Below are positions 7,669 to 22,047 of a stretch of 27,663 nucleotides of DNA, piece by piece. The stretch is from a virus. Where the stretch lies: positions 1 to 27,663 of the IMG/VR virus record IMGVR_UViG_3300025941_000084; one strand, 5' to 3'. The position numbers were made by a program, and so were the translations under genes. The notes beneath the pieces are model-generated. The model searched no databases, was not told the DNA's origin, and saw nothing but the letters and a program-made list of their open reading frames with translations. The stretch's first letter is position 1. Each line of letters starts with the position of its first letter.

Positions 7669-7755
7669 ATGCACCTGCATTTTCCAGCGCGCGGTCTGCA
7701 TCTGTGGCAATCCGCCGCCCGCAGTCCCCAGCAAGGGGAATTGTCATGTCGATGA
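7669..7755 (+). CDS. Possible 28-residue peptide overlapping the holin-candidate start
   Basis: An ATG at 7669 follows a good GAGGTG site at five-base spacing, and the frame ends at TGA 7753-7755, ten bases into the next gene. The peptide is rich in His, Arg and Gln and has no recognisable domain. It may be a leader whose translation controls the next gene, or a chance reading frame. Confidence 0.3.
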   Translation: MHLHFPARGLHLWQSAARSPQQGELSCR

Positions 7756-8126
7756 GCGACTTCGCTCCATTGATCCAGGCGGTAATTGCGCTTCTCGCGG
7801 CGGTGATGACTGGACTGATTGGTATATACGTGCCCCGAGCCATCGCCGCGTTCGAGGCACGAACCGGGATTGCGCTTACTCAACAGCAGCGTGAGGCGGT
7901 GCGCGGCGCGGCGCTGACGCAGGCGGGCATCATCGAGACGCAGCTACAGCAGAACATCTTGCGGCTCTCTCAGGTGCGGGCGGACAGCCCCGAGATGCTG
8001 GCCGCGGCCAAGCAGGCGCTGGCACGTGTGCCGCAGGCGGCGGCTGCGGTGGGCACGACGCCGGCCGCGATGAGCGCGATCATTGTCGGCGCCGCCGACA
8101 CCAGCAAAAAAGGATCGATGGCATGA
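7746..8126 (+). CDS. Putative holin-like membrane protein
   Basis: ATG 7746 is chosen because AAGGGG precedes it at about seven bases; the open frame reaches back to 7704 without a good site. The 126-residue product has one N-terminal transmembrane helix at about residues 6-28, then a charged linker (RAIAAFEARTG) and an amphipathic Gln/Ala-rich C-terminal region. The layout of one membrane helix plus a helical tail resembles LLH-type (superfamily 6) holins, and the gene sits in the lysis region upstream of the endolysin. The holin role is inferred from topology and neighbours; no diagnostic motif was seen. Confidence 0.5.
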   Translation: MSMSDFAPLIQAVIALLAAVMTGLIGIYVPRAIAAFEARTGIALTQQQREAVRGAALTQAGIIETQLQQNILRLSQVRADSPEMLAAAKQALARVPQAAAAVGTTPAAMSAIIVGAADTSKKGSMA

Positions 8127-10359: not shown

Positions 10360-10464
10360 TCAGTGACATCCTCCCATGTGCTTGCTGTAGGTCTCAACGG
10401 CGATGGCGAAGAACATCGCGCAGACCATGATGGTGATGGGCCAGCGCCATTCGTGCCAGTTCAT
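10360..10464 (-). CDS. Tiny membrane protein (34 aa) coupled to the GcrA homologue
   Basis: ATG 10464 overlaps the stop of the GcrA-like gene as ATGA, and its TGA stop lies one base before the next ATG. The peptide MNWHEWRWPITIMVCAMFF... has a single hydrophobic helix followed by AVETYSKHMGGCH. The tight coupling on both sides supports translation. Role unknown. Confidence 0.5.
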   Translation of the reverse strand: MNWHEWRWPITIMVCAMFFAIAVETYSKHMGGCH

Positions 10465-10985
10465 GCTGCGTCGCGCACGCGCACATACGCGATGCGTGCG
10501 TGCTCCGGGCAGTATGGCCGGTCCAGCGTGGTGACGTTAGCGCAACAGAACCGGAAGCTACTGGTTCCCGGATTGCCGAGCGGCCAGCAGCACTCCCGCA
10601 CCGTCCGTGGCACGTAAGGGGCCGGCAGCGGCCCTGGCATTGCCGGCAGCACCACGGGGCGGGCGAGCGATGGCAGGCCGCCGTCACCGACCGGACGCGG
10701 CAGATGGTGGCCCCCCGGCGGCGGCAGCCTGCCGGCATCGGCGCGGCGCTTGCGCTCCGCCCGCAACCCGGACTGCGGGCCACCGTGCCGGATCGGCGAC
10801 GGGCGCGGCAGGAGTTTCAGCCGGTGGACCTTGCCGACAACGGAGTTTTTCGACACACCTAGCGCGATGGCAATGAGGCGTGCAGAGTGCCCGGCGGCCC
10901 ACGCCGCGCGCAGATACTTGGTGCGCTCCAGCGGCCACTCCGGCGAGCCGGCGGCGTAGGTGCGGCGGCTCCTGGCGGCGGGCAC
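10461..10985 (-). CDS. gcrA: GcrA-family cell-cycle regulator homologue
   Basis: This is a 174-residue protein from GTG 10985, which shares one base with the bet stop. The N-terminus has the GcrA helix-turn-helix: a Trp near residue 17, a helix LRAAWAAGHSARLIAIALG, then VSKNSVVGKVHRL (44-56), matching the family signature of vSrNAVIGKvHRL. The C-terminus has the family's Cys-rich end: C-WPLGNP near 132-139, FRFCC, then PYCPEHARIAYV. GcrA binds RNA polymerase sigma70 and acts at promoters with GANTC methylation sites in alphaproteobacteria. A phage copy could redirect host cell-cycle transcription. The middle is Pro/Arg-rich linker. Confidence 0.85.
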   Translation of the reverse strand: MPAARSRRTYAAGSPEWPLERTKYLRAAWAAGHSARLIAIALGVSKNSVVGKVHRLKLLPRPSPIRHGGPQSGLRAERKRRADAGRLPPPGGHHLPRPVGDGGLPSLARPVVLPAMPGPLPAPYVPRTVRECCWPLGNPGTSSFRFCCANVTTLDRPYCPEHARIAYVRVRDAA

Positions 10986-11947
10986 TAGCCTGCGAGCACC
11001 TTGTCGGCGCCGCTGATCTCCACGTCGGCCAGCTCCGGCACGGTGGCGTCAGGCGGGGCGGCTGGCGTTATCGCCACCAGCAACTCGGTGATGATCGCGT
11101 TGAGTTCCGCGAGCGGCTGGTCCTTCAGGTACGCCTTCATCCGCAGCACCTCCTCGCCACACACCAGCTGGTTGACGGCTTCGGCCGGGTTTGGCTCCCG
11201 CAATGCGTCCTGTCCGCTGAGCCGCAGCGTGGCCAGGAACTCGCCCACGGTGCGCTTGCGAGCGCCGTTGCCGTTGGGTGCCGGCTCGGTGACGCGCGCG
11301 CCTCGCGGCATCGCCGTGGCCGCGGCGCGGATAGGCGGTTCAGCGTCGATTGTCTCACCCGCGAAGGTGTCGCGGCCCTCCATCTCTTCGGCCGTGTAGC
11401 CTGCTGAGAACTCGGGGAACGCCATGCGCAACGCCTGGCTCTCAGCGCACTTGGCGAGTTGCCCGTAAGCACGCTTCTTCCACATCTTGTTCGGCGCGTC
11501 GGTGTTTCGTCCCGCCGTCGCGTAGTTCTCCAGCCAACGCTCATTCGCCACGAATTCGCGGGCCTGCCCCTGCACGATACGTTTGACGGTGACGCGGCAC
11601 CACGCGGGGAAGATGACCGTTTCATCGCCCCAGACCTTCGTCACGTCGGGGCCGAACTCAGGTTCGCTCTTGCCGCCATACTCGCCGCTGCGTGCTGCCT
11701 TGATACGATAGTCAGCAATGCCCGGCATGAGGACATCGCGCATTTCCCATCGGTCGGGATTGGAGGATGTCTTGATGCTTGTCGGCACAATATGCACTGG
11801 CTTTAGGAACGGGTCCATGCCGTTCGCCCTGCAATACGCCAGCACTAGTTGGATGCTTTCCGGCTTGGCGCCGGGGTACAGGGAATTGCCGAGGATGCGG
11901 ATAACATCCTGCTCGTTCTCTGTGCCGACGACGGTCAACTCACTCAT
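10985..11947 (-). CDS. bet: Phage recombination protein Bet (RecT/Redbeta-type single-strand annealing protein)
   Basis: This is a 320-residue protein from ATG 11947 with AGGAG about ten bases upstream. The core (about 15-195) is clear Bet/RecT: VLAYCRANGMDPF-KPVHIVP, MPGIADYRIKAARSGEY, FPAWCRVTVKR, WKKRAYGQLAKCAESQALRMAFPE, GYTAEEM. The C-terminal 120 residues are a poorly conserved extension. Such proteins anneal complementary single strands during phage replication and repair. No exonuclease partner is adjacent. Its start overlaps the end of the upstream truncated gene. Confidence 0.9.
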   Translation of the reverse strand: MSELTVVGTENEQDVIRILGNSLYPGAKPESIQLVLAYCRANGMDPFLKPVHIVPTSIKTSSNPDRWEMRDVLMPGIADYRIKAARSGEYGGKSEPEFGPDVTKVWGDETVIFPAWCRVTVKRIVQGQAREFVANERWLENYATAGRNTDAPNKMWKKRAYGQLAKCAESQALRMAFPEFSAGYTAEEMEGRDTFAGETIDAEPPIRAAATAMPRGARVTEPAPNGNGARKRTVGEFLATLRLSGQDALREPNPAEAVNQLVCGEEVLRMKAYLKDQPLAELNAIITELLVAITPAAPPDATVPELADVEISGADKVLAG

Positions 11948-13407: not shown

Positions 13408-13584
13408 CTACCGCTGCACCCGGCGCAGCAACGGCCGCAGCTCGGCGGCCAGCAGCGCCTCCAGCTCGTCCCGCACGCCACGCGGCAACCGCGGCATCGC
13501 CAACACGCGCTCCAGCACGACCTCCAGCCGCGTCAGCGTGTCGGTCACCTCGCGCCAGGTCGGCGGCCTCGGTCGCGTAGGCAT
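13408..13584 (-). CDS. Hypothetical protein (58 aa), first gene of the leftward operon
   Basis: ATG 13584 follows GGGAGGG at about eight bases. The product is helical: MPTRPRPPTWREVTDTLTRLEVVLERVLAM, then LPRGVRDELEALLAAELRPLLRRV in outline. It ends 28 bases before the next start. A different, longer open frame runs over the same bases but has no ribosome-binding site and biased composition. This is the first gene after the long leader from the putative leftward promoter. Confidence 0.55.
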   Translation of the reverse strand: MPTRPRPPTWREVTDTLTRLEVVLERVLAMPRLPRGVRDELEALLAAELRPLLRRVQR

Positions 13585-13930
13585 GATGGCGCCCTCCCGG
13601 CGATTTCTTACGATTTGTCAGACGCGCGCCGGGTGCAAACGGTGCCAACGGATTACGGGCGTGATGTACGATAGTGTCGGAGCTTACTCGCTGGTAAATA
13701 ACAACTTTATGACGAGAATCTTCGTCTGAATGCGTAACATTGGTTGCGGAAATTGTGGCGGATATTAGTCTGCGCGGGCCGCGAGGGACGGCGACTACCT
13801 CCGCCTCAGTTGCGACCGCCGACCGCCGAGAACGGGCCGACGCCGACCATTCGGCAACGATAGGGGAGAGGACGCAGTGACGATCCGGCACGATGGCCTC
13901 CGCTTCGACAGCGGGGCCGATGTTGGCCTA
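13585..13930 (-). other. Long untranslated leader of the leftward operon (no gene seen)
   Basis: About 345 bases separate the predicted leftward transcription start from the first leftward gene. It includes an imperfect 16-bp dyad at 13711-13726 (GACGA/TCGTC arms) in an A+T-richer patch. Lambda-like phages carry antitermination sites in such leaders; none was recognised here. Confidence 0.4.
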
Positions 13931-13937
13931 TCCGACA
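13921..13937. promoter_or_regulatory. Repressor operator, left (oL1-like)
   Basis: The 17-bp dyad TGTTGG-N5-CCGACA has both half-sites identical to the operator at 14462-14478. It covers the predicted start point of the leftward promoter. Confidence 0.7.
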
Positions 13938-13965
13938 TTAAAAGGCAATGGCCTACGTCTGCCTA
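13937..13965 (-). promoter_or_regulatory. Putative leftward early promoter (PL-like)
   Basis: On the minus strand, TAGGCA (13965-13960) and TTTAAT (13942-13937) are separated by 17 bp. The start point would fall near 13930 within the operator. The -35 matches the consensus at four of six positions and the -10 at five of six. Confidence 0.5.
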
Positions 13966-13976
13966 CCAAACATTTT

Positions 13977-13993
13977 TGTTGGCAGGTACGCCA
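13977..13993. promoter_or_regulatory. Degenerate second left operator
   Basis: TGTTGG-N5-ACGCCA has a perfect left half-site and four of six bases of the right half-site relative to the two strong operators. It lies 56 bp from the first left operator, just upstream of the leftward promoter. Confidence 0.4.
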
Positions 13994-14013
13994 TGAGCGC
14001 GAAAATTGATGAT

Positions 14014-14424
14014 CTAGGCGGCCGTGTGGTTTCGCTCCGGGATAGACAGAAGCCGACACATCAGCGTCCGCTGTTCGTCCGTCATCCCACGCCAAAATTC
14101 GACCCAGGCCAATTCGTTGGGGTCATCAATGATCTGGCGCGGGCTTGGCGCTCCTGGGCCGGGCATCCCATGACGCATCTCATCGATCGTAATATGGAAG
14201 AAATCCGCAAGGGCGGCTAAGGTCTCCCGACCCGGCATGTAGTTGCCGCGCTCGATGCCGGCGATGGTCGAGCGGGCCACACCGATCTCGGTGGCCAACT
14301 CGATCTGCGTGAGCTGCTTCCGCTTGCGCAGAACCTTGATGAGGCGCCCGAAACTCGCGGCATGATTCGCCATGTCGGGCAACATGGCTGGCATTTCCAG
14401 ACTGGGTGCCGGATCAGCAAACAT
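14014..14424 (-). CDS. CI-like XRE-family repressor
   Basis: This is a 136-residue protein if ATG 14424 is used (GGAAGGG just upstream, spacing short); ATG 14370, nearer the domain, is an alternative. The helix-turn-helix is clear: FGRLIKVLRKRKQLTQIELATEIGVARSTIAGIERGNYMPGRETLAALADFF in outline, an XRE domain. The C-terminal 60 residues lack the Ser/Lys autoproteolysis domain of LexA/CI repressors, so induction would need another trigger, such as an antirepressor. It is divergent from the cro-like gene and flanked on both sides by matching operators, the arrangement of an immunity repressor. Confidence 0.8.
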   Translation of the reverse strand: MFADPAPSLEMPAMLPDMANHAASFGRLIKVLRKRKQLTQIELATEIGVARSTIAGIERGNYMPGRETLAALADFFHITIDEMRHGMPGPGAPSPRQIIDDPNELAWVEFWRGMTDEQRTLMCRLLSIPERNHTAA

Positions 14425-14451
14425 CTTCCCTTCCGTGTCGCTGGTTCGCCG

Positions 14452-14480
14452 TTGACTAACTTGTTGGTAGGTCCGACAAT
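14452..14480 (+). promoter_or_regulatory. Rightward early promoter (PR-like)
   Basis: TTGACT (14452-14457) and GACAAT (14475-14480) are separated by exactly 17 bp. The -10 ends only seven bases before the cro-like ATG at 14488, so the transcript probably starts at or next to the start codon. The repressor operator lies between and over these elements. Confidence 0.75.
14462..14478. promoter_or_regulatory. Repressor operator, right (oR-like)
   Basis: TGTTGG-TAGGT-CCGACA is a 17-bp near-palindrome placed between the -35 and -10 of the rightward promoter. Repressor bound here would block RNA polymerase. Both half-sites equal those at 13921-13937. Confidence 0.75.
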
Positions 14481-14487
14481 ACCCGCC

Positions 14488-14706
14488 ATGCGGGTTCAGG
14501 ACCTGATCGATAAGGCTGGGGGCGTCGGCAAGCTCGCTGCGCTGTGCAAGGTCAGTCATTCGACTGTCTGCGATTGGAACCGCGCGAACGCCCTGCCGGG
14601 ACATAGATTGCCGCGTATCAGCGCCGCGCTGGGCATTGAACCTGCGCTACTTATTCCCCTGGTGAATGAGCCGAAATCGAAGATGCTCGCCTGTGAGGCG
14701 GCATGA
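14488..14706 (+). CDS. Cro-like / YdaS-type DNA-binding protein
   Basis: The product is 72 residues from ATG 14488, directly behind the PR-like promoter and without room for a Shine-Dalgarno, so probably leaderless. The helix-turn-helix is visible: VQDLIDKAGGVGKLAALCKVSHSTVCDWNRANALPGHRLPRISAALGI in outline, the pattern of Cro/YdaS proteins. It would compete with CI at the shared operators and promote lytic growth. First gene of the rightward early operon. Confidence 0.8.
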   Translation: MRVQDLIDKAGGVGKLAALCKVSHSTVCDWNRANALPGHRLPRISAALGIEPALLIPLVNEPKSKMLACEAA

Positions 14707-14936
14707 CGGCTGTGTGCGCGAGCGTACGCTGGTGCTATGGTGGGCGTGGCCATCGCGGTGTCACCCTCGCCGTATGGTGCCTCAGCGGCGCACCGGCGTT
14801 CGTAGCGCCGGGCGTCGCGCTGCGTACTGAACCATACCCCATCGCAAATCGCAACCATGTCGCGGAGTCGGTCGCGGACGCGGGGCTGGTGCGGCTGGGT
14901 GCGTATGCGCCGTCGCTGCCGGCGGGTGCGCCATGA
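14703..14936 (+). CDS. Hypothetical protein (77 aa)
   Basis: The frame starts by ATGA overlap with the cro-like stop and ends by ATGA overlap with the methyltransferase start. The composition is unusual (Cys, Arg, Gly and Ala rich, several short hydrophobic pieces), and no family is seen. Only the chained overlaps support it. An antisense frame at 14858-14556 is considered under rejected items. Confidence 0.45.
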   Translation: MTAVCASVRWCYGGRGHRGVTLAVWCLSGAPAFVAPGVALRTEPYPIANRNHVAESVADAGLVRLGAYAPSLPAGAP

Positions 14937-15655
14937 GCCGGGTCGAGGTCATCGGCGGGGCCGAGCTTTGGCTTGGCGATGCGCGTGAGATTGTGCCGAC
15001 GCTGGCGCCGGTGGACAGCCTGATCACCGATCCGCCTTATGGGATCGATTTCGGCGGGAAGAGCACGAAACACACGACGCGCCGGCATGACGGCTACATC
15101 GGCGGGGATACCGCTGAAGGCCCGGCGGTTGTGGCATTGGCCCTTGCCATCGCAGTAAGGGGTGCTGTGTTCCCCGGCATTCGTCAGATGTTCCGATACC
15201 CCGAACCTGACGACATTGGCGGCATTTTCTGCCCTGCCGGCGCTGGCGTCGGTCGATGGGGATGGGTGGGTTATCATCCGGTGCTGTTCTACGGGACACG
15301 GCCGGGAAGCGGTCTATATCCGACGTGCATCACATCGTTTGCGACCGCCGAGCCAAGCGAACATCCGTGCCCGAAACCTGAAAAGTGGATGCGGTGGTTA
15401 ATCTCGCTGGCATCACTGCCGGGCGAGACGGTCCTCGATCCTTTCATGGGAGCAGGAACAACGCTCGTCGAGTGCATCAGGGCTGGCCGTTGCGGCGTCG
15501 GGATCGAGATCGAGCCGAAGTACTACGAAATTGCGCTGCGTCGGATCGAGGCTGCGTCGCGTCAGGCGGACCTGTTCCATGCGCCTGCCCCCGCCCCGCG
15601 CGCCGCGCCCGCCGACCTGTTTGCCGTGGAGGCCATCGCAACGCAAGGAGACTGA
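14933..15655 (+). CDS. DNA (adenine-N6 or cytosine-N4) methyltransferase
   Basis: This 240-residue protein has motif IV DPPYG at 33-37 ahead of the AdoMet-binding motif I DPFMGAGTT at 169-177, the order of beta-class N6-adenine/N4-cytosine methyltransferases. The C-terminal region CGVGIEIEPKYYEIALRRI completes the fold, followed by a Pro/Ala tail. It transfers methyl from S-adenosylmethionine to DNA bases. The target-recognition region (about 60-150) is small and lacks the CcrM C-terminal extension, so GANTC specificity cannot be claimed. No restriction enzyme is adjacent; protection from host restriction or regulation are the likely uses. Confidence 0.85.
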   Translation: MSRVEVIGGAELWLGDAREIVPTLAPVDSLITDPPYGIDFGGKSTKHTTRRHDGYIGGDTAEGPAVVALALAIAVRGAVFPGIRQMFRYPEPDDIGGIFCPAGAGVGRWGWVGYHPVLFYGTRPGSGLYPTCITSFATAEPSEHPCPKPEKWMRWLISLASLPGETVLDPFMGAGTTLVECIRAGRCGVGIEIEPKYYEIALRRIEAASRQADLFHAPAPAPRAAPADLFAVEAIATQGD

Positions 15656-21492: not shown

Positions 21493-21546
21493 AACGACAG
21501 CGCGGACAGCCCTCGTCGGTCCCCGCATGTCGTGCGGATGCCATCC

Positions 21547-22047
21547 ATGACCCTCTGGTACTGCGCCTGGACCGAACCAGCCCGCGAGTGGCGCGCCTAC
21601 CACGAACTCACTGCCGCCGGCTTCAAAACCTATCTCCCGCTCCATCTCCACCACTTCGACACCAAGCGTGATCACCGCAGCGGATACCGCATCGAGGTCA
21701 TGTTCCCGCGCTATCTGTTCACCGCCCTCGATCTCGCCATCGACCAGTGGGGCGCCGTCGTGCGAACCCGAGGCGTCGCCGGACTGATCCGACACGCACT
21801 AGACCAACCAACCGCGTTGCCCCCCGGCGTCGTCGAGAACCTGATCGAGCGCACCAGCCCACGCGGCATCGTCGACGACCCAGGCGACAACGCCCCGCAC
21901 AGCGCGCTACACGCCGTCCAGCCGCCGGAGTGGCGCAACATCACCAGCCTGGGCAGCTCGGCGCGTGTGAGGCTCCTATGCCGGCTATTCGGGCCCGATG
22001 CCGCACAGCGCATTGTCTCGGAAGATGAGACGGCGCACGCGGCGTGA
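21547..22047 (+). CDS. NusG/RfaH-like transcription elongation factor (NGN domain)
   Basis: This is a 166-residue protein if ATG 21547 is used (ATG 21538 and GTG 21532 are alternatives; no clear ribosome-binding site). The N-terminal domain has the NGN pattern: LWYCAWTEPAREWRAYHELTAAGFKTYLPLHL, IEVMFPRYLFTAL, VVRTRGVAGLIRH, LPPGVVENLIERT. NusG-family NGN domains bind RNA polymerase and affect pausing and termination. A typical KOW domain is not seen in the last 60 residues. Its position just before the packaging genes suggests a phage-specific antiterminator for late genes. Confidence 0.75.
   Translation: MTLWYCAWTEPAREWRAYHELTAAGFKTYLPLHLHHFDTKRDHRSGYRIEVMFPRYLFTALDLAIDQWGAVVRTRGVAGLIRHALDQPTALPPGVVENLIERTSPRGIVDDPGDNAPHSALHAVQPPEWRNITSLGSSARVRLLCRLFGPDAAQRIVSEDETAHAA

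Follow-up and report, generated by a model that had tools for sequence, protein, structure and literature searches.

Two 17-bp sites that flank the repressor gene of an uncultured virus are probably the right and left operators of the lysogeny switch of a temperate phage (rough probability 0.8). In the window, which is the whole stretch of 27,663 bases that was analysed and makes up the viral record, the exact pattern TGTTGG-N5-CCGACA was found by pattern scan in two copies, at positions 13921-13937 and 14462-14478. The sites are read as operators because their recurrence, their positions on predicted promoters and the order of the surrounding genes agree.

A palindrome repeated on both sides of the repressor gene

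The left site (TGTTGGCCTATCCGACA, 13921-13937) and the right site (TGTTGGTAGGTCCGACA, 14462-14478) are putative operators of OL and OR type, assigned to neither strand. Each is a 7+7 imperfect palindrome with one mismatch between the arms, and the half-sites are identical at 12 of 12 positions on the two sides of the repressor gene, as the earlier note had described. The flanking pair is A..T in one site and T..A in the other, with complementarity kept. The scan of the whole genome that had been proposed as a check was run, and the exact pattern is confined to these two sites rather than scattered, with no third copy in the 27,663-base record. From base composition, the expected number of exact copies is 0.0035 for the record and 0.00013 for 13585-14487.

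In a recurrence test that takes the choice of motif into account, every near-palindromic 6-N(0-10)-6 element within the 63-bp intergenic region was scored for exact recurrence in the 840 bp leftward. Recurrence was seen in 0 of 3000 trials with the left region shuffled, in 0.07% with both regions shuffled, and in 0.7% (34/4836) of random pairs of real stretches. Because recurrence is rare in all three nulls, a chance origin of the pair is unlikely. The most improbable of the alternatives considered is that both matches are chance, or that the sites have some other role, for instance in recombination or integration. A relaxed third match in an unrelated coding ORF would fit it, whereas the recurrence statistics, the placement on two promoters and the lack of an integrase gene among the ORFs checked speak against it. 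That match, at 8084-8100, is the one extra match to the relaxed symmetric pattern TGTYGG-N5-CCRACA in the whole record, and is probably a coding coincidence. It is a perfect palindrome, TGTCGGCGCCGCCGACA, near the end of the probable coding ORF 7704-8126.

With at most two mismatches allowed, the operator pattern has nine matches in the record, including four inside 13921-14478. The degenerate copy at 13977-13993 (+ strand), pointed out earlier, is indeed present with two mismatches, but with nine such positions in the record it is statistically insecure. A second, likewise insecure copy with two mismatches (14407-14423, - strand) lies in the first codons of the repressor gene. Measured between centres, the two lie 56 and 55 bp from the strong sites, each towards the repressor gene, in a near mirror-image layout. 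They could be auxiliary sites but are near chance level. The copy at 13977-13993 also covers the -35 of a rightward promoter-like sequence, TTGGCA-16-GAAAAT (13979-14006, + strand), whose transcript would run antisense to the repressor gene at its 3' end.

Predicted promoters under the two sites

Promoters were predicted with a weight matrix scan blind to the 17-bp sites; the matrices are E. coli-like whereas the host is probably an alphaproteobacterium, a point against the operator reading. The top match on the + strand of 13585-14520, termed PR, is the promoter-like sequence TTGACT-17-GACAAT (14452-14480), with the -35 TTGACT at 14452-14457, a 17-bp spacer and the -10 GACAAT at 14475-14480. 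On the - strand of the same region the top match, termed PL, is TAGGCA-17-TTTAAT (13937-13965), with the -35 TAGGCA at 13965-13960, a 17-bp spacer and the -10 TTTAAT at 13942-13937. Both rank within the seven top-scoring promoter matches of the record.

The right site had been claimed to sit between the -35 and -10 of a rightward promoter. It lies inside the PR spacer and reaches into the -10 as far as its fourth base. The left site spans about -7 to +10 of PL, so that the claim that it covers the start point of a leftward promoter is borne out by a scan that took no account of the site. A random 17-mer overlaps any of the seven top promoters with a probability of 0.016, and both sites would do so by chance with a probability of about 0.0003; when placement is limited to the non-coding parts of the region, p is only about 0.05, which speaks against the operator reading. 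PR and PL face outward from the repressor gene, PR towards a Cro-like gene and PL towards a RecT-type recombination operon. The site-blind scans thus support the proposed anatomy, a repressor gene between two copies that each lie on an outward early promoter. As is general for phage operators, a recurrent palindromic site overlaps, in silico, the promoters it would control. Transcription from PR is predicted to start at the very ATG of the Cro-like gene (14488), which would give a message with little or no leader.

The leftward operon and its leader

Leftward from the left site follow small genes, a Gp157/Gam-like protein and an annealing protein (10985-11947, - strand), which family scans assign to the RecT family (PHROG 2449). 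What had been called a Bet operon is thus a recombination operon facing PL, as proposed, but its annealing protein is of the RecT family. The probable first gene of the operon (13408-13584, - strand) encodes 58 aa and has a codon-position GC typical of coding genes here. Two further ORFs, one on the + strand at 13877-13996 and one on the minus strand from the GTG at 13891, were rejected as genes, their codon-position GC being unlike that of coding genes here. Because of this atypical codon-position GC, 13585-13891 is tentatively read as a mostly untranslated leader.

Just downstream of PL, the leader (13878-13918, - strand) contains a hairpin and a block conserved in L005, the nearest relative found, whose RecT is 94% identical over the first 200 residues. 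L005 retains leftward genes and the leader block that follows the predicted PL directly. The hairpin (13918-13895, - strand) carries a GGAGG motif in its 3' arm, shortly ahead of the GTG at 13891. The block at 13909-13878 is identical at 28 of 32 positions in the corresponding leader of L005 (5691-5732, + strand), where the 3' arm and the bases following it are kept and the 5' arm is different yet still pairing. The two fold z-scores are -2.8 and -3.9. An Rfam search gave no match, and matches to the leader in two other genomes (L021 and L022) were short and GC-rich and were dismissed as chance. The PL leader is possibly a translation- or termination-control element.

The leader also bears on the possibility that the right site alone is a repressor operator, the left match having arisen by chance and the recombination operon using another promoter, for instance in the AT-richer segment 13640-13760. 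Other minus-strand promoter-like sequences do occur in that segment (e.g. TTACCA-18-TATCGT, -35 at 13697), closer to the first probable gene (13584); the conserved leader is also present in L005, which is without the site, and the 0.7% of random real pairs sharing such an element would allow for an accidental left copy. However, the left copy matches at all 12 half-site positions and lies on the top minus-strand promoter-like sequence of the region, and the conserved leader is directly downstream of PL, as expected of a transcribed leader. An operator on the right side only is thus considered unlikely, and operators on both sides remain the preferred reading.

The repressor, the Cro-like protein and a proposed switch

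The repressor gene (14014-14424, - strand) encodes 136 aa with an HTH_3 domain. Its earlier designation as CI-like holds for the DNA-binding domain but not for the remainder, as family scans of the 136-aa protein matched HTH families only and found no S24 peptidase domain. The repressor is therefore unlikely to undergo classical RecA-stimulated self-cleavage, and induction may need another route, e.g. an antirepressor. The Cro-like HTH gene (14488-14706, + strand), whose ATG lies at the predicted PR start, encodes 72 aa; in family scans its best matches are PHROG 35/409 (transcription-regulator), with a sub-threshold match to YdaS. The two genes are divergent, with an operator-type site on the promoter between them, and a DNA methyltransferase gene (14933-15655) comes after the Cro-like gene. 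AlphaFold models of both proteins, made from single sequences, were of low confidence and were left out of the analysis.

From the sequence we infer that both promoters are active and that the repressor (14424-14014), presumably as a dimer, is the protein that binds the imperfect palindrome TGTTGG-N5-CCGACA and sets the immunity specificity. At the right site the bound repressor would occlude the PR spacer and -10, so that neither the Cro-like gene nor the rightward early genes are expressed; at the left site it would cover the PL start point and silence the recombination operon of RecT type. Competition for the right site probably comes from the Cro-like protein.

Alternatively, a different regulator might bind the sites, be it the Cro-like protein on its own or some other protein of the phage or the host. 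The binding protein is not assignable by sequence alone, the right site adjoins the Cro-like gene, and the phage has a further regulator, of the GcrA type. Yet the sites flank the repressor gene and lie on both outward early promoters, as targets of the repressor should, and in characterised lambdoid switches the operators are common to repressor and Cro. A different binder is therefore regarded as very unlikely, and the repressor is retained as the candidate. A more elaborate form of the switch, unlikely as a whole, would pair the one strong operator on each lytic promoter with a weak one lying about 55 bp towards the repressor gene, the two being used jointly by a peptidase-less repressor; a leader hairpin masking the RBS-like motif would add a second level of control to the PL transcript.

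Relatives, host and lifestyle

Searches with the repressor and the Cro-like protein in IMG/VR, phages, plasmids and 398 sampled genomes yielded no relative carrying the same repressor, only distant HTH matches that do not share the sites. The 19-bp right site had no exact match in IMG/VR. One candidate relative (L004) was rejected as a chance match, and another genome (L019) has no comparable immunity region. In L005 both the repressor and the Cro-like gene differ from those of the window, and no copy of TGTTGG-N5-CCGACA is present. This contrast is consistent with an exchange of immunity cassettes between relatives and is not proof that the sites belong to the repressor. An intergenic palindrome of L005, TTGTCGGCTGACAA, shares only 7-mers with the left region of that genome (4 seen, about 3 expected), and no significant analogous repeat was found there. 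Because this sharing is about at chance level, the palindrome argues neither for nor against the operator reading.

Among the other products of the record are terminase, portal, tape-measure and endolysin proteins. A GcrA-type cell-cycle regulator is encoded at 10461-10985 (- strand; Pfam PF07750, E 2.5e-20), which suggests that the phage probably has an alphaproteobacterial host. In alphaproteobacteria GANTC is the motif linked to GcrA; it occurs 28 times in the record, against 89 expected from base composition. A NusG-like protein (21532-22047, + strand) matches a PHROG antiterminator family and is possibly a late-gene antiterminator. The ORFs checked yielded no integrase, and the record may be a fragment; a temperate lifestyle is suggested by the presence of the repressor.

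Comparison with known lysogeny switches

In the immunity region of lambda, CI and Cro are divergent, one operator lies over PR, a second lies at the promoter of the leftward recombination operon, and the operators are 17-bp imperfect palindromes. The window likewise has divergent repressor and Cro-like genes with an operator-type site on the intervening promoter, and, in silico, a second site (13921-13937) on the leftward early promoter beyond the repressor gene. It differs from lambda in having a single strong site on each side rather than three adjacent operators per control region, in the operator sequence, in an annealing protein of the RecT family to which Bet is not the direct top match, and in a 136-aa repressor in which the C-terminal S24 peptidase of CI was not found. 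Pairwise cooperativity of the lambda type inside an operator is not evident, given the short repressor and the single strong site on either side.

Rhizobium phage 16-3 is similar in being an alphaproteobacterial temperate phage with a C repressor, and in the phage collection its p096/p097 methyltransferase is the top match for the one at 14933-15655 here (31% identity). The 16-3 operators are 434-like, with ACAA/TTGT arms, and are unlike the sites described here.

The CI-MOR switches of TP901-1 and phi13 work with few separated palindromes (PMC7250872, PMC8516035). They resemble the present arrangement in a repressor without a peptidase domain, a divergent small partner gene and few separated palindromic operators, whereas their operator consensus, AGTTCAYR, is unlike the present sites (PMC7250872, PMC8516035). 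TP901-1 has a third operator, OD, in the distal part of mor (PMC7250872, PMC8516035). A counterpart of OD is absent here, as the Cro-like gene (14488-14706) contains no copy with two or fewer mismatches.

The outcome for this uncultured and probably alphaproteobacterial phage is a testable operator sequence, from which its immunity specificity is predicted, and a pair of promoters that its repressor is expected to silence. The arrangement itself is the classical one of the textbooks, and what is new is its occurrence in an unstudied phage.
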